DNA from: Rhodococcus jostii NBRC 16295
GTDB lineage: Bacteria > Actinomycetota > Actinomycetes > Mycobacteriales > Mycobacteriaceae
Length of the DNA: 64,000 nucleotides
NCBI RefSeq assembly: GCF_001894825.1
Contig: NZ_BCWY01000047.1
Coordinates: 1 to 64,000, forward strand
Direction: 5' to 3'
Below, in pieces: positions 3,229 to 55,690 of the stretch. Each line of letters starts with the position of its first letter. Position 1 is the first letter of the stretch. Both the position numbers and the translations under genes were made by a program. The notes beneath the pieces were generated by a model. It worked only from the letters and a program-made list of their open reading frames with translations. It ran no database searches and was not told where the DNA came from.

Positions 3229-4416
3229 ATGGGGGAGATCGTGCGTTACACCTACCGCCTGCGACCGGGCGCGACGGCAGAAACTGCACTTGTCGCGGAG
3301 TGGCATCGCTGCCGGTTCTTGTGGAACGAGGCAGTGCATCAACAGAGTTCCGGCACTATGCCGACTATGGGCTCTCTCTCTCGGATGCTTACCGAGGCGA
3401 GAGCCCGTTGCGAGTGGCTGCGGACGGGCTCGCAGGTCGCGCAACAGCAGATGCTGCGCAATTACTGGCAGGCGTTGACCGACTCGTTCAAATTGAAGGA
3501 CAGGGGGCGACCGCGGCAAAAAGCGCGGAAGCGCGCTCTCCCCTCGTTGGAATTCACGACTCGGGGTTTCTCGATTAGCGACGGGCGTTTGATGCTGCCG
3601 AAAGGTACAACGATCCCCGTAGTGTGGTCCCGCGAATTGCCGTCCAAGCCAACCTCTGTCCGTGTGTACCAGGATTCCATTGGTCATTGGTATGCGTCGT
3701 TCGTCGTCCGACGACCGGATACGCCGATTCCCAGAGTAGAAGGCGCCATTGGTATCGACTGGGGTGTATCGACGACCGCGACTACCACCGACCAGCGCTA
3801 CGATTTGCCATACCTTAGGCATCGGAAGCGCTGCGCCGCCGAGCTCGCAAAGGTACAACGCAAGATGGCGCGACGCCGACGTGTAGGCGCGAAACCATCG
3901 CGCGGGTATATCGCCGCCAAGAGGCAGGCCGCGCGACTGCAAAAGAAGGCGGCTCGCCAGACTCAGCACGACTCCAGGATCTGGGCACGAAGGGTCGTCG
4001 AGGACCATCAGCTGATCGCCGTGGAGGACTTCAAACCGAAGTTCCTCGTCAAATCGACAATGGCGCGAAAGTCTGCTGATGCCACGATCGGGGCGGTGAA
4101 GAGGGGGCTGATCGAATTCGCCCACCGGTTCGACCGTCAGCTGGTGCTCGTCTCGCCCAGGTACACGACCATGACGTGCTCCAGTTGCTTCGCGAGAGCC
4201 AAGCAGCAATTGGGGCTCGGCGAACAAACTTTCCGGTGTTACGGGTGCGGCAGTACTGCTCATCGTGACCGGAACGCCGCCAGGGTGATCCTGGCTGTGG
4301 CAGAGCGGGGCCACACCAGCGTTGACGATATAAGTCACTTGCAGCCCTCCTCTGGGTTGGTTGTGAGTGCGGTCCGAGTTGAAGATCCCCAGGCCTCATC
4401 AATGGGGAACCGTTAA
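3229..4416 (+). CDS. tnpB: TnpB, RNA-guided RuvC nuclease of an IS200/IS605- or IS607-type element
   Basis: A full-length 395-residue TnpB. The RuvC catalytic residues are all visible: Asp177 in GIDWGV, Glu266 in AVEDF and Asp347 in HRDRN. A zinc ribbon has Cys317/Cys320 and Cys337/Cys340. The N-terminus has the usual YRLRP...C..LWN start, and a Lys/Arg-rich stretch lies at 200-245. The ATG at 3229 was chosen because the family N-terminus begins there. No tnpA transposase lies beside it, so this is a lone tnpB. It runs against the ccs operon and its stop overlaps the ccdA stop by two bases. Codon use has more A/T third positions (TTG, GTA, CAA) than the neighbours, a sign of transfer. TnpB proteins are known to use an RNA from the 3' end of their own gene as guide scaffold; activity here is inferred. 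Confidence 0.93.
4386..4408 (+). ncRNA. Terminal hairpin of the tnpB element (candidate omega RNA end)
   Basis: TCCCCA at 4386-4391 pairs with TGGGGA at 4403-4408 across an 11-nt loop, just before the tnpB stop. A GC-rich hairpin ending in GGGGA at this place is typical of the right end of actinobacterial tnpB elements and closes the guide RNA scaffold. If so, the guide would be read from the bases just downstream, inside the 3' end of ccdA. The exact right end is not defined. Confidence 0.45.
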
Positions 4417-5243
4417 ATGGGGAGGGTCACTTCCGAGATGAAGGCGTCGCGAACCCAGCCGACGAACTGGTCCCACGCGCCGGTGACGAGGGCGATGCCC
4501 ACGGCCACCAGCATGATTCCGCCGAAGATTTGAATGGTGCGCGCGTTGCGGCGCAGCCAGCCGACACCGCGCAGCGCGCGGGACGAGCCGAGCGCCAGGA
4601 TCACGAACGGCAACCCGAGGCCGAGGCAGTACGCGACGATGAGGGCCACTCCGCGGGCGGCGGTGGCACCGTCGGTGCCGGCGGCGAGGGAGATGACACC
4701 CGCCAGGGTGGGGCCGAGGCACGGGGTCCAGCCGAGCGCGAACACGGCACCGAGCAGCGGGGCCCCGGCCAGGCTGGAGATGCGGCGCGGCTCGAGCCTC
4801 GTGTCGCGCTGCAGGGCCGGGATCAGGCCGATGAACACCAGGCCCATGGCGATGGTGACCACCCCGCCGACGCGCATCAGGATGTCGCGGTTGATCGCCA
4901 GGGCCGAGATGGCGCCGAACACCGAGGCGGTGGCGAGCACGAACACCACGGTGAAACCGGCGACGAACAACCCGGCCGCGCCCGCGACCCGCAACCGTCC
5001 GTCCGCGACCGTCTTCGTGCGGGTGGCGGCCTCCTCCGCGGTGACGGCCGGGGCGTCCGCCCCGACCACACCCGCGAGGTAGGACAGGTATCCGGGAACG
5101 AGCGGCACGACGCACGGCGACGCGAACGACACCAGACCGGCGAGGACGCACGCACCGAGCGCGAGCAGCAGCGGGCCGGATGCCGCGGTGGATTGGAAGG
5201 CGTCGCCGACGCCGCCGGCGAGAAGGGCAGTGCTGGTGCTCAC
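4413..5243 (-). CDS. ccdA: Cytochrome c biogenesis protein CcdA
   Basis: CcdA/DsbD-type membrane thiol carrier of 276 residues. It passes reducing power from cytoplasmic thioredoxin across the membrane to keep apocytochrome c and its thioredoxin partner reduced. The two conserved Cys-Pro contexts are present: Cys44 in [13 protein letters not shown] and Cys175 in GWTPCLGP. About six helices are visible. Its ATG overlaps the TlpA-like gene stop (ATGA). The C-terminus abuts the tnpB insertion: the ccdA stop shares two bases with the tnpB stop on the other strand, so the element inserted at or just beyond the end of ccdA. Confidence 0.94.
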
Positions 5244-6580: not shown

Positions 6581-7906
6581 TCAGGGCCGGACGGCCGCGG
6601 CGGCGGCCTTGGCAGCGTGCGGCAGGGCGTCGGCGATGATCGAGAATGCCTTGTCGTCCATGGCGGCGGAGACGAACCACGCCTCGAACGCGCTCGGCGG
6701 CGGGTACACCCCACGCGACAGCAGGCCGTGGAAGAACGCCGGGAAGCGCCAGGTCTGGGCGGCCTTCGCCTCGTCGTAGTTGGTCACCGGGTCCTCGCTG
6801 AAGAACACGCTGAGCATCGTGCCTGCGGTCTGCACCCGGTGCGGCACGCTCTCCGCGGTCAGCGCGTCGGACAGCAGGGTCCGCAGGGTGGCGCTGTTGC
6901 GCTCGAGTGCGTCGTACACGCCCTGGTCCGCGGCGCGCAGGCTGGCGAGCCCGGCAGCGACGGCGACGGGGTTCCCGGACAGGGTGCCCGCCTGGTAGAC
7001 GGGTCCGGCCGGGGCGAGATGCGCCATGACGTCGGCGCGGCCCCCGAACGCGGCGGCGGGCAGGCCACCGCTCATCACCTTGCCGAACGTGTAGAGGTCA
7101 CCGGCGACGCCGTCGAGGCCGTACCAGCCGGCGGAGCTGACCCGGAATCCGGTCATCACCTCGTCCATGATGAGCAGCGCGCCGTTGTCGCGGGTGAGGG
7201 TGCGCAGGCCCTCGTTGAAACCGGGCTGCGGCGCCACCGCGCCCATGTTGCCGGCGGCGGCCTCGGTGATGACGCACGCGATCCGGCCCTCGTTCGCGGC
7301 GAACGCCTGGGCGACGGCGTCCAGGTCGTTGTAGGGCACGACGATGGTGTCTTCGGCCTGCGCACCCGTCACCCCGGGGGACGTGGGGAGTCCGAACGTG
7401 GCGAGTCCCGAACCGGCGTCGGCCAGCAGGGCGTCGACGTGGCCGTGGTAGCAGCCGGAGAACTTGAGGATCTTGGTCCGGCCGGTGAAGCCGCGGGCCA
7501 GGCGGACGGCGCTCATGGTGGCTTCGGTGCCGGAGTTGACCAGGCGCACCTTCTCCACCGGCGCGACCCGGCGGACGATCTCCTCGGCCAGTTCGATCTC
7601 GCCCTCGGTGGGCGCGCCGAACGACAGGCCGGTGGCGGCCGCCTTCTGCACGGCCTCGACGACGGCGGGGTGCGCGTGCCCGAGGATCATCGGCCCCCAG
7701 GAGCAGATGAGATCGACGTAGTCGTTGCCGTCGACGTCGGTGAGTGTGTAGCCGGACGCTTCCTTGATGAACCGCGGGGTGCCGCCGACCGAATGGAAGG
7801 CCCGGACCGGGGAGTTGACGCCGCCGGGAATGACCAGATCAGCCCTCTCGAAGAGCTGGGCGGAGCGGGATGCGTGCACGTCGGGGTCACCGGAGGAAAC
7901 AGTCAC
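6581..7906 (-). CDS. hemL: Glutamate-1-semialdehyde 2,1-aminomutase
   Basis: PLP enzyme of about 441 residues that makes 5-aminolevulinate from glutamate-1-semialdehyde, the step after HemA (18.9-20.3 kb). Family features are visible: PGGVNSPVR near the N-terminus, GCYHGH, the [12 protein letters not shown] cofactor motif and the Schiff-base lysine in [11 protein letters not shown]. The start is uncertain. I use the GTG at 7906, but its GGAGG is only 2 nt away; a longer frame begins at 7981. It follows the VOC gene on the same strand by about 60 bp. Confidence 0.93.
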
Positions 7907-50815: not shown

Positions 50816-51898
50816 TCAGAGCGCGCAGCCCACCGTCACGGGTTCGGGTTCAAGCCGGACACCGAACGCCGATTGGACGCCGTCACGGACGTCGCGGGCC
50901 AATGACAGCAGGTCTTCGCTCTTGGCGGCGCCACGATTGGTCAGGGCGAGGGTGTGCTTGGTCGACAGCCGGGCGACGGCGTTCTCGCCGGGATACCCCT
51001 TGGAGAAGCCCGCACGCTCGATCAGCCACCCCGCAGACAACTTGGTTCCGCCGTCCGCCGGATACTGCGGAACGGTGACGTCACCGAGGCGGGTCTCGAT
51101 CGCGGCGAGGACACCCGCCAACTCCCCGTCGGACACGACGGGGTTGGTGAAGAAGGAGCCCGCACTCCACGTGTCGTGATCGTCGGGGTCCAGCACCATG
51201 CCCTTGCCCCGGCGAAGGTCCAGCACGGCGTCGCGGACCTGCGCCGACGGCAGCCGATCGCCCTCGGAACCGCCGAGCGCCGAGACGAGTTCGCGGTAGC
51301 GCAGCGGCTCGGAGAGCCCGTCGGGATGGACGGTCAGTTCGACCGCCAGCACCAGGGCGGCGTCGGAGTGCTTGAGAACGCTCGTGCGGTAGCCGAGACC
51401 GAGGGCGCCGGGTTCGACCCAGCGCGCCTCACCGGTGCGTCGGTCGAGCAGCTGTACCCGCCTCAGCATCGATCCGACCTCGACGCCGTATGCGCCGACG
51501 TTCTGCACCGGCGTGGCCCCCGTCGACCCGGGAATCCCCGACAGGCACTCGAGCCCGCCCAGTTCGGCCGCGACAGTCTGCGCGACCACCTGATCCCACT
51601 CGGCCCCCGCCTCGGCAGTGACGAATCCCTCCTCCAGACCGACAGTGGTGTTGCACACACGCGCCACCACGCCGTCGAATCCGTCGTCCCCGACCACCAG
51701 ATTGGAGCCACCGGCGAGGATCAGCGCCGGGATCTGCGCGGCGTCGAGGAGGCGCACCACGTCGACGAGGACCTGCGTCGTCGGACACTCGGCCACGATC
51801 CGCGCCGGCCCGCCGACCCGGAGCGTGGTCATCCCCGACAGTTCGAGGTTCTCGGACACAAAGGCGCCCGAATCGACGAGTTGACTGACAATGCTCAC
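50816..51898 (-). CDS. murB: UDP-N-acetylenolpyruvoylglucosamine reductase
   Basis: A 360-residue flavoenzyme that makes UDP-MurNAc for cell-wall precursors. The FAD motifs LAGGSNLVVGDDGFDG and GIPGSTGATPVQNVGAYG and the catalytic Ser in SAGSFFTNP are present. GTG 51898 is used. It is divergent from the DUF2505 gene by 34 bp and followed by the L,D-transpeptidase. Confidence 0.95.
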   Translation of the reverse strand: MSIVSQLVDSGAFVSENLELSGMTTLRVGGPARIVAECPTTQVLVDVVRLLDAAQIPALILAGGSNLVVGDDGFDGVVARVCNTTVGLEEGFVTAEAGAEWDQVVAQTVAAELGGLECLSGIPGSTGATPVQNVGAYGVEVGSMLRRVQLLDRRTGEARWVEPGALGLGYRTSVLKHSDAALVLAVELTVHPDGLSEPLRYRELVSALGGSEGDRLPSAQVRDAVLDLRRGKGMVLDPDDHDTWSAGSFFTNPVVSDGELAGVLAAIETRLGDVTVPQYPADGGTKLSAGWLIERAGFSKGYPGENAVARLSTKHTLALTNRGAAKSEDLLSLARDVRDGVQSAFGVRLEPEPVTVGCAL

Positions 51899-51932
51899 GT
51901 CCCACACAACCGCAAACGGTAGCCTGCGGATC

Positions 51933-52430
51933 GTGAGTCGCCGCATCGAGCATTCGTCGTCCTATGCGTTTCCCGTCGCCCAGGTCCATGCGGGCCTGAT
52001 CACCGAGCAGTACTGGCGCGACCGTCTCGACCGGGTCGGAGGACCGGGGGCGACCCTGGACGAGGTCACGACCGGCCCGGGCACCATCTCGGTGGCCATG
52101 TCTCAGTCGATTCCCGCCGAGCACCTGCCCAGCATCGTCTCGAAGGTCCGATCCGGTGACCTCGTGATCAAGCGCACGGAGACGTGGGGCACCCTCGACG
52201 GCGACCGCGCCGAGGGCACCTTCACGGCCGAAGTCCAGGGTGCGCCGGCGACGATCTCGGGGACCCAGACCCTGACGGCTACCGGTTCCGGGTCGAACGT
52301 GCAGGTCGAAGGCAAGGCCGACGTCAGGATCCCGCTGATCGGCGGCAAGATCGAGGGTGCGATCGCGGACGAGGTCCTGCGCCTGATCGCGAAGGAGCAG
52401 GGGTTCACGGAGCAGTGGCTCGGGGCCTGA
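51933..52430 (+). CDS. DUF2505 protein (SRPBCC-like fold), copy 1
   Basis: A 165-residue protein of the DUF2505 family, a START-like hydrophobic-pocket fold: SYAFPVAQVHAGLITEQYWRDRL at the start and VRIPLIGGKIEGAIADEV near the end. It starts at GTG 51933. Its paralogue follows 51 bp downstream. Function unknown; the fold suggests lipid or small-molecule binding. Confidence 0.82.
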   Translation: MSRRIEHSSSYAFPVAQVHAGLITEQYWRDRLDRVGGPGATLDEVTTGPGTISVAMSQSIPAEHLPSIVSKVRSGDLVIKRTETWGTLDGDRAEGTFTAEVQGAPATISGTQTLTATGSGSNVQVEGKADVRIPLIGGKIEGAIADEVLRLIAKEQGFTEQWLGA

Positions 52431-52481
52431 CCTGGGGCGGGTGTCCCTTGTGTTCCGTCACAGCCGGTAACCTTGGCGATC

Positions 52482-52982
52482 ATGGCTCGCCGCATCGACT
52501 ACTCAGCCCGTTACAAGCACACCCCCAAAGAGGTGTACAACGCGTTCACCAACCGTGACTACTGGGATGCTCGCATCGAGGAGATGCGGAAGTACTCCGA
52601 GAACCACATCGAACACTTCGAGGTGACCGACGACGGGATCGACATCGTCCTGCACCACATTCTGCCGCGCTCGGAACTCCCCGAGATCGCGCAGACCGTG
52701 ATGAAGAAGGACATGGTCATCACGCGCAAGGAGTCGTACACGCCCTTCGGTGAGCCGACCACGGGCACGTACGAGGCGTCGATCCCGGCGGGGCCGGGCA
52801 GCCTCACGGGCACCATGAAGCTGTTCGCCACCGAGACCGGGTGCACGTTCCGCACGTCGTCCGAGGCCAAGGTGTACCTGCCGTTCGTCGGCGGGAAGCT
52901 CGAGCAGCTGATGCTCGTCAACCTGATCGACCTCTTCCGCGCCGAGGCGGAGATCACCGAAACGTGGTTGTCGCAGCACTAG
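52482..52982 (+). CDS. DUF2505 protein (SRPBCC-like fold), copy 2
   Basis: A 166-residue paralogue of the preceding gene, with matching YSARYKHTPKEVYNAFTNRDYW and VYLPFVGGKLEQLMLVNL segments. Identity between the two is modest by eye, so the duplication is old. ATG 52482. Confidence 0.82.
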   Translation: MARRIDYSARYKHTPKEVYNAFTNRDYWDARIEEMRKYSENHIEHFEVTDDGIDIVLHHILPRSELPEIAQTVMKKDMVITRKESYTPFGEPTTGTYEASIPAGPGSLTGTMKLFATETGCTFRTSSEAKVYLPFVGGKLEQLMLVNLIDLFRAEAEITETWLSQH

Positions 52983-53003: not shown

Positions 53004-53801
53004 ATGACTTCAGCGACGCTGAAGCGGCCTCACGGTGTCATCACCCGGGGCACGACAGGCATCAATCGGCTGCGACGCAGCGACCGCTGGCTCGTTCACG
53101 ACGCGCTGGTGCGCCGGACCCTGCGCGATTCCGCCGACCCGCTCGTCGTCGACCTCGGGTACGGCGCCCGCCCGCACACCACGTTCGAGTTGGCCGACCG
53201 GCTGGCCGCCGTGCGCGGTGACCGCCGGGTGGTCGGGCTCGAGATCGACCCCGAGCGGGTGGTCGAGAGCAGGAACGGAGTGAGTTTCGCCCGCGGCGGG
53301 TTCGAACTCTCCGGACTGCGACCGGTCCTGGTCCGCGCCTTCAACGTGCTGCGGCAGTATCCCGAGGACGCGGTCGGGCCGGCCTGGGCGCGCATGCAGT
53401 CCGGGCTCGCGCCGGGCGGGCTGATCGTCGACGGCACGTGCGACGAACTGGGCCGGCGCTGTGCGTGGGTGCTGCTCGACGCCACCCGCCCGCTGTCACT
53501 GACGCTGGCGTGGGATCCGTTCGCCGTGGAGAAGCCCTCGGACATCGCCGAACGCCTGCCCAAGGCGCTGATCCACCGCAACGTCCCGGGCGAGCCGGTC
53601 CACGCCCTCCTCACGGCAGCGGATCGCGCCTGGGCGACGGCGGCCCCGCACGGCTCGTTCGGACCGCGGGTGCGGTGGCGGGCCGCTCTCGAACTGCTGC
53701 GCGCGCAGGGACTTCCCGTGCAATCCCAGCGCCGCCGGATCCGCGACAACATCCTGACCGTTCCGTGGGCACTGGTCGCGCCCGGTTCCGGCACCAATTA
53801 A
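53004..53801 (+). CDS. SAM-dependent methyltransferase-like protein
   Basis: A 265-residue protein with a class I methyltransferase core: VVDLGYGARPHTTFEL as motif I and VVGLEIDPERV as motif II. The usual G-x-G is replaced by GYGARP. Substrate unknown. It ends 47 bp before the first Y RNA, on the same strand. Confidence 0.72.
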   Translation: MTSATLKRPHGVITRGTTGINRLRRSDRWLVHDALVRRTLRDSADPLVVDLGYGARPHTTFELADRLAAVRGDRRVVGLEIDPERVVESRNGVSFARGGFELSGLRPVLVRAFNVLRQYPEDAVGPAWARMQSGLAPGGLIVDGTCDELGRRCAWVLLDATRPLSLTLAWDPFAVEKPSDIAERLPKALIHRNVPGEPVHALLTAADRAWATAAPHGSFGPRVRWRAALELLRAQGLPVQSQRRRIRDNILTVPWALVAPGSGTN

Positions 53802-53806
53802 TTCAC

Positions 53807-53835
53807 GCGACATCCCCCGAAGCGGCCCGTAGAGT
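53807..53835 (+). promoter_or_regulatory. Candidate promoter of the Y RNA/rsr transcript
   Basis: GCGACA (53807-53812) and TAGAGT (53830-53835) with a 17-bp spacer match -35 and -10 elements. The predicted start, at about 53842, is 6 bp before the closing stem of the first Y RNA. Confidence 0.45.
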
Positions 53836-53847
53836 CACTTCACGAAA

Positions 53848-53992
53848 CATGTTGTGCCGGTGCGCAGGCGAGGGTTACTTCGACTGTGGATCGCGTGGTC
53901 GCCGGTTCGAATCCGGTCAGGGACGCAGGTCCCTGTAGCTCAGCGGTAGAGCGCGTCCGTGCCTTCACCGACTCTGATCTCGGCACGACATG
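53848..53992 (+). ncRNA. Y RNA 1 (YrlA-like) with circularly permuted tRNA-like domain
   Basis: A 145-nt RNA. Its ends pair as CATGTTGTGCCG/CGGCACGACATG, 12 bp with one U-G. Inside, in this order: 3' anticodon-like strand GGA(T)CGC (53888-53894), T arm GCCGG-TTCGAAT-CCGGT (53901-53917), 3' acceptor strand CAGGGAC, loop GCAG, 5' acceptor strand GTCCCTG (53929-53935), TA, then a canonical D arm GCTC-AGCGGTA-GAGC (53938-53952) and the 5' anticodon-like strand GCGTCC. So the acceptor end is a closed hairpin and the RNA ends lie on the anticodon side, as in Salmonella YrlA. It lies just upstream of a Ro60 gene. Bacterial Y RNAs are known to bind Ro60 and tether it to PNPase. Confidence 0.82.
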
Positions 53993-53993
53993 C

Positions 53994-54100
53994 GTGCGCG
54001 CCACCCGGTGCGCAGACGACGGATACTTCTCAGGCGAAGTGCGCAAGCACGCGGTTCGACTCCGCACCCCGTCGTCGCCTCGACCTCGGGTGGCGCGCAC
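53994..54100 (+). ncRNA. Y RNA 2: long-stem RNA with compact tRNA-like head in normal order
   Basis: One base after Y RNA 1, GTGCGCGCCACCCG (53994-54007) pairs exactly with 54087-54100 (14 bp). After an internal loop (7 and 10 nt), GACGACGG (54015-54022) pairs with CCGTCGTC (54069-54076) as an acceptor-like stem. The head has a D-like hairpin ACTTC-TCAGGC-GAAGT (54025-54040), a minihairpin with a GCAA tetraloop (54040-54049) in place of an anticodon arm, and a T arm GCGG-TTCGACT-CCGC (54051-54065). The order is normal, not permuted. It is probably a second Ro60-binding Y RNA; it could also be part of the rsr leader. Confidence 0.65.
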
Positions 54101-54142
54101 TCCACGCGTACACCGACACCTCCCGGAAGGAGGAACGACCCC

Positions 54143-55690
54143 ATGAGCAAGTTCAACCTGAAGACACTGCGCCGCAACATGCTACAGAGCCCCGTCACGT
54201 CGGAGACGCAACCGACCGGACGCACCTTCGAAGGCGGCAGCGGCTACGCCCGCGACGCGAAGAGCGAGTTGTTCCTCCTCGCGGTCACCAACATGGTCGG
54301 TGAGAACACCTTCTACGAGTCGGCCTCGGACCGCGACGGGAGGTTCGTCGAGCTGATCCACGAGGTCGCTCTGGCGGATGCCGAGTGGACCGCCCGCCTG
54401 ATCGGGTGGCTGCGCCGCGACGCGCATCTGCGTTCGGCGTCGGTGGTGGCCGCCGCCGAGTTCGTCCGGGTCCGGCTGGGCGCCGGGCTGCACGGTGGCA
54501 ACCGTGCCGTCATCGCCTCGGCGCTGGAGCGGGCCGACGAGCCGGGTGAGATCCTCGCCTACTGGATTGCGCGCCACGGCCGTTCGATCCCGAAGCCGGT
54601 GAAGCGCGGTGTCGCCGATGCCGCCGTCCGGCTGTACTCGGAACGCTCGCTGCTGAAGTGGGATTCCGATGCGAGGGACGTCCGCTTCGGCGACGTTCTC
54701 GAGCTCACCCATGCGTCGCCGTCGGCGCCGTGGCAGGGCGAGCTGTTCCGGCACGCGATCGATCGTCGGCAGGGACGCGAGAATGCCGTGCCCGCGGGTC
54801 TGCGCATGCTCACGGAACGGGCGTCGCTGGCGGCGCTCCCGCCGGAGGATCGGCGTGCCGTCCTCCGCACCCCGGAGCGGCTGTCGGCGGCCGGCATGAC
54901 GTGGGAGTCGCTCGCCGGCTGGCTGCAGGGACCGATGGATGCGGCGGCGTGGCAGGCGGTGATCCCGTCCATGGGATACATGGCGCTTCTTCGCAACCTG
55001 AGGAATTTCGACGAGGCCGGGATCCCCGACCACGTCGCGGAGCAGGTGGCGGCGCGGATCGCGGATCCGGGTGAGGTCGCGAAGTCGCGGCAGTTGCCGA
55101 TGCGATTCCTCGCGGCGTACCGGAATGCGCCGAGCCTGCGGTGGGGACATGCGCTCGAGCGTGCGCTCGGGGCGTCACTGTCCGCGGTGCCGTCGCTCCC
55201 CGGCCGCACCCTGATCCTCGTCGACCGGTCGGGATCGATGTTCTACAGCCGCGTCTCGGCGCGGTCGGAACTGACGAGGGCCGACGCGGCCGCCGTGTTC
55301 GGCACCGTGCTGGCTGCGCGCGCCGAGCGGGCGAACCTGGTCGAGTTCGGCACGGGCAGCCGGTTCGTGCCGTTCAAGCACCAGCCGGTCCTGCGGGTCG
55401 TCGACAGTTTCGGCGATCTCGGCGGCACGGACACGGCGTCGGCGGTGCGGAAGCATTTCCGCGATCACGATCGCGTCGTCATCGTCACCGACGAGCAGGC
55501 GGCGTGGGGTGAACCGACCCGGCACGTCCCGGCCGACGTCCCCGTGTACACGTGGAACGTGGCGGGCTACCGGCACGGTCACGGACCCACCGGCACTGCG
55601 AACCGCCACACGTTCGGCGGGCTGTCGGATGCGGGATTCTCGATGATCCCGCTTCTGGAGAACACCCGGAACGGCGAGTGGCCGTTCTGA
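54143..55690 (+). CDS. rsr: Ro60 orthologue Rsr (TROVE plus von Willebrand A domain)
   Basis: A 515-residue Ro60 protein. The TROVE HEAT-repeat ring covers about residues 25-345 (GGSGYARDAKSELFLLAVTN near the start), and the von Willebrand A domain at 355-515 has an intact MIDAS motif DRSGS (361-365). AAGGAGG lies 9 nt before the ATG. Ro60 rings bind Y RNA on the outside and misfolded RNA ends in the centre, and help PNPase degrade structured RNA. No RtcB or RtcA RNA-repair genes lie nearby, unlike the Salmonella rsr operon. The Y RNAs lie directly upstream on the same strand. Confidence 0.93.
   Translation: MSKFNLKTLRRNMLQSPVTSETQPTGRTFEGGSGYARDAKSELFLLAVTNMVGENTFYESASDRDGRFVELIHEVALADAEWTARLIGWLRRDAHLRSASVVAAAEFVRVRLGAGLHGGNRAVIASALERADEPGEILAYWIARHGRSIPKPVKRGVADAAVRLYSERSLLKWDSDARDVRFGDVLELTHASPSAPWQGELFRHAIDRRQGRENAVPAGLRMLTERASLAALPPEDRRAVLRTPERLSAAGMTWESLAGWLQGPMDAAAWQAVIPSMGYMALLRNLRNFDEAGIPDHVAEQVAARIADPGEVAKSRQLPMRFLAAYRNAPSLRWGHALERALGASLSAVPSLPGRTLILVDRSGSMFYSRVSARSELTRADAAAVFGTVLAARAERANLVEFGTGSRFVPFKHQPVLRVVDSFGDLGGTDTASAVRKHFRDHDRVVIVTDEQAAWGEPTRHVPADVPVYTWNVAGYRHGHGPTGTANRHTFGGLSDAGFSMIPLLENTRNGEWPF

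Follow-up and report, generated by a model that had tools for sequence, protein, structure and literature searches.

A Rhodococcus Ro60 locus carries a YrlA-like Y RNA resembling a complete, circularly permuted tRNA and, beside it, a second Y RNA

Two structured RNAs, designated RNA1 and RNA2, lie on the plus strand in the 341-bp gap upstream of a Ro60 gene of Rhodococcus jostii NBRC 16295. The evidence supports the identification of RNA1 as a YrlA-like Y RNA that lies next to Ro60 and contains a circularly permuted tRNA-like domain, as a preliminary description of this DNA had proposed: a match to the YrlA family, a TROVE gene, arrays of similar RNAs in other Ro60 loci, and covariation all bear on this assignment. 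Beyond that description, we report a second Y RNA (53994-54100), an anticodon-like arm in RNA1 (53881-53895), and arrays of Y RNA units upstream of Ro60, including in phages. On balance, we lean toward a model in which each of the two Y RNAs preceding Ro60 joins a constant handle to a presented module, that of RNA1 being a complete permuted tRNA, and in which the RNAs would tether a tRNA-binding partner. Positions are those of the window, the whole 64,000-nucleotide stretch of DNA that was analyzed.

Published passages portray bacterial Y RNAs as mimics of tRNA (PMC8394870) and as circularly permuted relative to tRNA (PMC11472068), a mimicry by permutation that the preliminary description had also noted. 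Those excerpts further state that Rsr binds the Y RNA stem, that a Y RNA tethers PNPase in Deinococcus, and that YrlA is modified by DusA and TruB (PMC8394870, PMC4726728). A structure of Salmonella YrlA (PDB 6CU1) is cited in PMC8394870 and PMC11472068.

RESULTS

The Ro60 locus

The features of the locus, with the evidence for each in parentheses, are as follows.

53807-53835, plus strand: promoter-like site GCGACA, 17-nt spacer, TAGAGT (read by eye)
53848-53858, plus strand: 5' side of the RNA1 outer stem, paired to 53982-53992 (sequence, fold, motif scan)
53859-53880, plus strand: RNA1 conserved 5' core GGTGCG...TTACTT (core that served to find the 177 complete units described below)
53881-53895, plus strand: RNA1 anticodon-like arm CGA-CTGTGGA-TCG, then CG, tRNA positions 29-43 (covariation, loop statistics)
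53896-53900, plus strand: RNA1 variable loop TGGTC, 44-48 (15-48 covariation in 52 relatives)
53901-53917, plus strand: RNA1 T arm GCCGG-TTCGAAT-CCGGT, 49-65 (YrlA match, fold, covariation)
53918-53935, plus strand: RNA1 acceptor hairpin CAGGGAC-GCAG-GTCCCTG, 66-72, sealing loop, 1-7 (YrlA match, fold, covariation)
53936-53955, plus strand: RNA1 TA (8-9), D arm, G26, and CG (27-28) (YrlA match, covariation)
53979-53992, plus strand: CTC of the RNA1 3' core (53979-53981), with the 3' side of the outer stem (sequence, motif scan)
53994-54100, plus strand: RNA2, the second Y RNA (fold, motif scan, kept in Rhodococcus)
54015-54022 with 54069-54076, plus strand: RNA2 inner stem, GACGACGG with CCGTCGTC (fold)
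54027-54050, plus strand: RNA2 hairpin TTC-TCAGGC-GAA, then GTGC-GCAA-GCAC
54051-54065, plus strand: RNA2 T arm GCGG-TTCGACT-CCGC (fold, motif classing)
54143-55690, plus strand: Ro60 (Rsr, TROVE) gene, 515 amino acids (PF05731, E = 1.3e-13, over the cutoff)

The Ro60 gene starts 150 bp downstream of RNA1. Its matched pieces were 54 to 94% identical in 10 of 11 relatives (L014 to L024); L014 was unmatched in that search. Among 101 genomes searched around the source genome, 12 carried Ro60, of which 8 belong to its genus, the source genome counted. The open reading frame before the gap ends at 53801 and had no Pfam match. The hexamers of the promoter-like site and their spacing are identical in all seven Rhodococcus loci with an intact RNA1 (the window, L018 to L021, L023, and L024), and a consensus promoter scan returned no site. 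We infer a promoter-like element upstream of RNA1 at this site, and RNA1 and RNA2 probably lie in the leader of Ro60, with which they may be transcribed.

A hairpin at 54119-54133 (CCTCC-CGGAA-GGAGG) could mask the ribosome-binding site of Ro60. Two tandem DUF2505 genes occupy 51891-52430 and 52473-52982. In one Rhodococcus relative (L022, upstream of 4052), the 5' part of RNA1 is swapped for other sequence and RNA2 is retained; the Ro60-matching stretch is shorter in this locus.

Architecture of RNA1

RNA1 is 145 nt long (53848-53992). Its outer ends close in the 12-bp stem foreseen in the preliminary description (53848-53859 with 53981-53992), in which G53859-C53981 is the 12th pair and one pair is G-U. 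The T arm, both acceptor strands, the GCAG loop, TA, and the D arm are all present between 53901 and 53952 in the order claimed. The acceptor hairpin consists of CAGGGAC (53918-53924), the loop GCAG (53925-53928), and GTCCCTG (53929-53935), and it is followed by TA (53936-53937) and the D arm GCTC-AGCGGTA-GAGC (53938-53952, positions 10 to 25). The tRNA halves are swapped and joined at the acceptor end, an order borne out by the sequence itself, the YrlA match, and covariation. Unlike a canonical tRNA, RNA1 has neither the 5'-to-3' order nor an open acceptor end; the end is sealed, and charging is therefore not possible. The triplet in the anticodon position is GTG (53886-53888), and the CG at 53954-53955 (27-28) pairs with the CG at 53894-53895. 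The 5' core (53859-53880) is presumed to be the Ro60-binding strand.

The minimum-energy fold of the 145 nt has an energy of −70.7 kcal/mol (z = −3.83), and none of 200 shuffles was as low. In this single-sequence fold, the outer stem, the T arm, and the acceptor hairpin are retained, and the D arm and the anticodon-like arm are both missing. A covariance-model search with YrlA, suggested earlier as a check, gave a subthreshold match: in an 801-base search, Rfam model RF02553 matched 53894-53955 with an E value of 4.4e-7, but the score of 39.5 bits falls under the gathering score of 69. A whole-window Rfam scan at gathering scores gave no match, and ARAGORN called no tRNA in the window. At E values up to 0.1, YrlA matches were obtained in 10 of the 11 relatives, the best at 43.6 bits. 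RNA1 shares with YrlA the order of T arm, acceptor hairpin, and D arm, the long enclosing end stem, the position adjoining Ro60, and a covarying structure.

RNA2, a second Y RNA

RNA2 sits between RNA1 and Ro60. The 5' core GGTGCGCAG.CGA.GG.TACTTC is common to both RNAs, as is a 3' core whose last bases are CTC; to this shared core RNA2 adds a T arm and no D arm. Its 13-bp outer stem is formed by GTGCGCGCCACCC (53994-54006) and GGGTGGCGCGCAC (54088-54100), and its fold has a z score of −4.10 (computed on 53993-54107). Three hairpins are present, one of which is the T arm. The loop of the TTC hairpin has 6 nt, and for this reason its likeness to an anticodon arm is one judged by eye; the stem becomes ACTTC/GAAGT if the neighboring GTGC hairpin opens. 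The hairpin GTGC-GCAA-GCAC is placed like a long variable arm, and the RNA2 module is perhaps akin to a class II tRNA in its 3' half.

Arrays of Y RNA units at Ro60 loci

Ninety-two loci were scanned: the window stretch, the 11 relatives, and the best 80 of at least 210 confirmed Ro60 loci, which seem to be actinobacterial and probably include the same genomes as 3 of the relatives. With the conserved core plus outer stem as the criterion, 177 complete Y RNA units were found in 76 of the 92 Ro60 loci, up to six per locus. No complete unit was found on the antisense strand of these loci or in one shuffle of each, and 19 more 5' cores lacked an accepted partner.

Inspection by eye added Y RNAs that the scan had missed: L014 has three Y-like RNAs, and in Streptomyces there are units whose stem is bulged. 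The array of L014, which belongs to another genus of the family, gave weak matches to RF01656, nematode stem-bulge RNA, at 4259-4367 and 4386-4516 (37.7 bits, against a gathering score of 38, and 29.4 bits).

A crude classing, which misplaces some units (e.g., the diverged RNA1 of L024 and L027, put in the last class), sorted the 177 units by the elements they carry: 93 have all three (T arm, acceptor hairpin, and D-like arm), 16 have the T arm and the acceptor hairpin, 16 have the T arm only, and 52 have none of these. The last class (L066, L100, L076, and others) holds minimal Y RNAs, many with 56 to 67 nt between the outer stem strands; T and D arms are absent, yet in some an anticodon-like hairpin persists (loops CTCCAAA and TTCAGGT, for example).

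An anticodon-like arm and the point at which the tRNA is opened

The bases of the arm, from the conserved TTC to the T arm, were taken by spacing alone. Of 91 unique RNAs with T arm, acceptor hairpin, and D-like arm, 60 are in tRNA register, their T arm starting 21 to 22 nt after the start of UUC; the other 31 are out of register, and 7 of these start the T arm 2 nt after the UUC start. The 60 in-register RNAs comprise 52 distinct strings, on which covariation was analyzed. The compensatory changes that the preliminary description proposed to look for in relatives were found in these 52 RNAs.

The 7-nt loop mostly obeys the tRNA rule Y-U-NNN-R-A in the 52 RNAs (pyrimidine 32 in 49, U33 in 42, R37 in 48, and A38 in 48), and positions 34 to 36 hold all bases. 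Of 196 distinct segments, 91 fold into a 7-nt-loop hairpin that begins in the core (mean of 27 and maximum of 41 in 300 shuffle rounds). The 196 include 37 TACTTC segments from ten phage loci, not every one of which is a Y RNA. Among these hairpins, 56 fit YUNNNRA (shuffle mean of 0.3, maximum of 3 in 300 rounds). The excess of hairpins is confined to the phage segments and to the classes with all three elements or none; none was seen in the class with T arm only, to which RNA2 belongs (2 of 12 segments; shuffle mean, 2.3), or with T arm and acceptor hairpin (2 of 16; shuffle mean, 1.8).

Pairs of the anticodon stem were tested letter by letter against 5,000 shuffles in the 52 distinct RNAs. 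Pair 30-40 is formed in 46 (shuffled mean, 23.3) and pair 31-39 in 44 (30.8). With the strand after the D arm (marked by a prime), pair 27'-43 is formed in 48 (29.0) and pair 28'-42 in 47 (31.9). For each of these four pairs, none of the 5,000 shuffles was as high. Pair 29-41 is C-G in 47 RNAs, and C29 is invariant. All five pairs of the composite stem are formed in 40 RNAs, four in 5, and fewer in 7. Pairs 29'-41, 30'-40, and 31'-39 had no shuffle support, and a full alternative closing stem (27'-31' with 39-43) was rejected, covariation being seen only in its outer two pairs. The stem is thus composite, with 30-40 and 31-39 formed with the Ro60-core strand and 27-43 and 28-42 formed with the strand after the D arm. 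Because the stem pairs covary from two places, the RNA1-type anticodon stem is best explained as built from two strands, which would make the tRNA a complete one with its opening between nucleotides 28 and 29. RNA1 of the window has the loop CUGUGGA, and its five pairs (C27-G43, G28-C42, C29-G41, G30-C40, and A31-U39) are all Watson-Crick.

An alternative partner for 42-43 is the upstream UU (28-42 in 44 of 52 RNAs and 27-43 in 39), and for this reason the composite stem and a plain five-pair hairpin may alternate; since UU is invariant, its pairing with 42-43 is beyond the reach of covariation. The plain hairpin was assessed by the pair-by-pair shuffle test alone.

In a MAFFT alignment of the 52 relatives, in which some rows are off by one in the hairpin, the composite structure (30-40, 31-39, 27'-43, 28'-42, and 29'-41) had 95.5% of cells paired and a covariation score of 0.624. 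Shuffling gave 71.1% paired cells, with none of 500 shuffles as high, and sliding the partners by 1 to 3 columns gave 32 to 46%, both being controls that do not fully allow for kinship. The one-sided closing stem, which has most pairs in common with the composite structure, had 90.8% of cells paired and a covariation score of 0.591. The tertiary pair 15-48 is G-C in 29 RNAs and A-U in 23, without exception; U8-A14 is present in 52 of 52, and the D-loop GG is present in 51.

When the bodies were un-permuted, ARAGORN called 51 of 52 as tRNA, with RNA1 of the window called as His(gtg); it called 0 of 52 in the native order and 0 of 52 after shuffling. Other openings were called in 52 and 50 of 52 RNAs and swapped halves in 21 to 30 of 52. 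ARAGORN therefore does not locate the opening and was rejected as proof of it. The analysis suggests that the tRNA mimicry of these RNAs is fuller than the recorded family description.

Variation of the loops

Among close Rhodococcus relatives, the triplet at 34 to 36 is GTG, ATG, GTT, or GTA in RNA1 and CAG, CTG, CCG, or TCG in RNA2. Loops differ within each of the 11 loci with two in-register RNAs. Counted as distinct loops (some phage segments are doubled in the raw tally), 16 of 54 equal an anticodon loop of the source genome's tRNAs; permuted triplets matched 9.15 loops on average, and 6 of 5,000 permutations reached 16. The excess of substitution rate in the anticodon among six close Rhodococcus relatives is weak, at 2 of 3 columns versus 14 of 151 for RNA1 and 1 of 3 versus 12 of 111 for RNA2. 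The pairing of a Glu-type D arm with a Glu anticodon is also weak (3 of 8 versus 5 of 89; P = 0.017). Assignment of each module to one parent tRNA was rejected, as the nearest source-genome tRNAs are mixed; RNA1 of the window is nearest to Arg(ccg) despite its triplet GTG.

Phage loci

Of 50,697 phage records, 89 have Ro60-like genes, duplicates included. Ten actinophage loci were read, and in eight of these (L105 to L109 and L112 to L114) arrays were seen by eye in the 800 bp before Ro60, those of L105 to L108 carrying the core CGATGCG. In L110, one clear unit precedes Ro60, and in Streptomyces phage Kela (L111), an annotated RNA ligase gene (2229-2981) lies directly before Ro60 in place of an array. 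Units also lie upstream of Ro60 in Xanthomonas, Brevundimonas, and Caulobacter phages (L164, L165, and L168), where a clean arm is present in 3 of 14 segments (with loops including CUUGUAA and CUGUUAA); the arm is therefore not confined to Actinobacteria and their phages. No units were seen upstream of Ro60 in a Microcystis phage, and an Rfam scan, the one search applied to it, gave no match in a Thermus phage.

Several phage Ro60 genes lie among tRNA genes. Annotations of tRNA-Arg(cct), tRNA-Arg(tct), and tRNA-Thr (L106, 2769-2843; L109, 2704-2775; and L164, 2711-2778) overlap Y RNA units directly upstream of Ro60, and these annotations are likely misannotated Y RNAs.

The units of the Caulobacter (L168, 2573-2830) and Brevundimonas (L165, 2860-2975) phages have D arms, GTGGCGGA...AGACGC and similar, that we take to look like those of tRNA-Leu; these units are perhaps class II tRNA mimics. 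The Brevundimonas phage, Domovoi, also carries a permuted tmRNA a few kilobases after Ro60 (6832-7087; RF04321, 60.2 bits, over the gathering score of 47).

DISCUSSION

The likeliest role of these RNAs is to tether Ro60 to a partner that binds tRNA. The handle would be the long end stem together with the GGUGCG...UUACUU/CUC core, and it should be held by Ro60. The module of RNA1 would run from 29 to 72, through the 4-nt sealing loop, and then from 1 to 28; with its chain broken within the anticodon stem and sealed at the acceptor end, it would present a free 7-nt loop on a five-pair stem. RNA2 would present its T arm, the second hairpin, and the short UUC hairpin. A tRNA-shaped module could dock a tRNA-binding protein, delivering it to RNAs threaded through Ro60, and might also gate access to Ro60. 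By analogy, RNA1 appears to fit the known tethering role of Y RNAs, and the genome encodes PNPase, RtcB, and Dus genes. What is new is that a sealed tRNA body presents an anticodon loop and that loops differ within one array.

RNA1 is like YrlA (RF02553) in its permuted T arm, acceptor hairpin, and D arm, in its long end stem, and in adjoining Ro60. In the RF02553 consensus, the 5' core and the T arm are not separated by a hairpin, whereas in RNA1 an anticodon-like arm with a 7-nt loop occupies this place. We regard this extra arm as the difference of a variant and know of no statement that makes absence of the hairpin a defining YrlA trait. In permuted tRNA genes of algae, the 3' half likewise precedes the 5' half; RNA1 differs in its sealed acceptor loop and in having its body inside a Ro60-type stem. 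tRNA mimicry is also common to tmRNA and viral tRNA-like structures. A tmRNA identity for RNA1 was rejected, Rfam giving no tmRNA match in the window at the gathering score or in 53500-54300 at E values up to 5. Two Y RNAs beside rsr are also found in the Salmonella rsr-yrlBA-rtcBA operon, where YrlB is the second Y RNA (PMC7790460, in part); the comparison is one of gene layout. At the present locus, a T arm is part of the second RNA, and the array is positioned upstream of Ro60. The anticodon-like arm is not described in the available parts of PMC8394870, PMC4726728, PMC11472068, PMC7790460, PMC7824862, PMC9569102, and PMC8190616, which are not an exhaustive sample of the literature, and an earlier mention is possible.

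Two serious rivals concern the arm itself. It could be a structural relic of descent from tRNA or a U-turn whose sole part is to stabilize the fold, with positions 34 to 36 drifting freely; we judge this rather unlikely, and since it is compatible with tethering, it does not exclude that explanation. The spread of 34 to 36 over all bases is as expected under drift, and 105 of the 196 segments have no clear arm. However, positions 36 and 37 show a tRNA-like preference (G37 with G36 in 12 of 17 distinct loops and A37 with U36 in 10 of 13), and units classed without a T arm form the hairpin in 22 of 51 segments (shuffle mean, 4.8), with YUNNNRA in 9 such segments (shuffle mean, 0.07). Alternatively, Ro60-bound Y RNAs could be stable tRNA look-alikes whose varied anticodon loops occupy or report anticodon nucleases (toxins and phage-triggered tRNases), the phage arrays being for counterdefense. 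Actinobacterial and phage Ro60 loci would then encode arrays of sealed permuted tRNA mimics as anticodon decoys or sensors in tRNA-cutting conflict, which we consider unlikely. Retention of the loop rules while 34 to 36 vary, the matches to real anticodon loops (16 of 54, against a permuted mean of 9.15), the different loops in all 11 loci with two in-register RNAs, the phage Ro60 genes and Y RNA units among tRNA genes, and the RNA ligase gene beside Ro60 in Kela are consistent with this proposal. Of 7 Rhodococcus RNA2 loops, 5 contain CAG-G or CUG-G and the rest CCG-G and UCG-G, and in an excerpted report the two tRNAs that one mycobacterial VapC cleaves in vivo have cut loops in which CAG or CUG precedes G (PMC6459853). 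Phage tRNAs have been proposed to counter anticodon nucleases (PMC10264068, in part). The authors of PMC7790460 raise the possibility that YrlA competitively inhibits an anticodon nuclease but report that the tRNA-like domain of YrlA is not a substrate of the nuclease. Also against a decoy role are the single PIN-domain match in the genome (PF01850, the nuclease family covered) and the weakness of the anticodon rate excess.

Processing of a permuted tRNA gene into a working tRNA is most improbable. The un-permuted bodies pass ARAGORN, and two sealing loops read ACCACAC and ACCACTC; against this, the acceptor end is sealed by 3 to 4 nt in 43 of 60 RNAs, the body is enclosed in the Y stem, the triplet varies between close relatives (GTG, ATG, GTT, and GTA), and the genome has its own set of 48 distinct tRNAs, His(gtg) among them. 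We give equally little credence to chance inverted repeats or a Ro60 leader attenuator, to which the location of the RNAs in the 341-bp gap and a hairpin that could cover the ribosome-binding site (54119-54133) lend themselves, in the face of the covariation, the arrays, and the absence of units on the other strand.

An intact anticodon loop directs the search for a partner to proteins that touch the anticodon. The loop would also link Ro60 to tRNA damage and phage conflict, a link that is directly testable. The findings carry a warning as well: among phage genes annotated as "tRNA" next to Ro60, some are probably Y RNAs.
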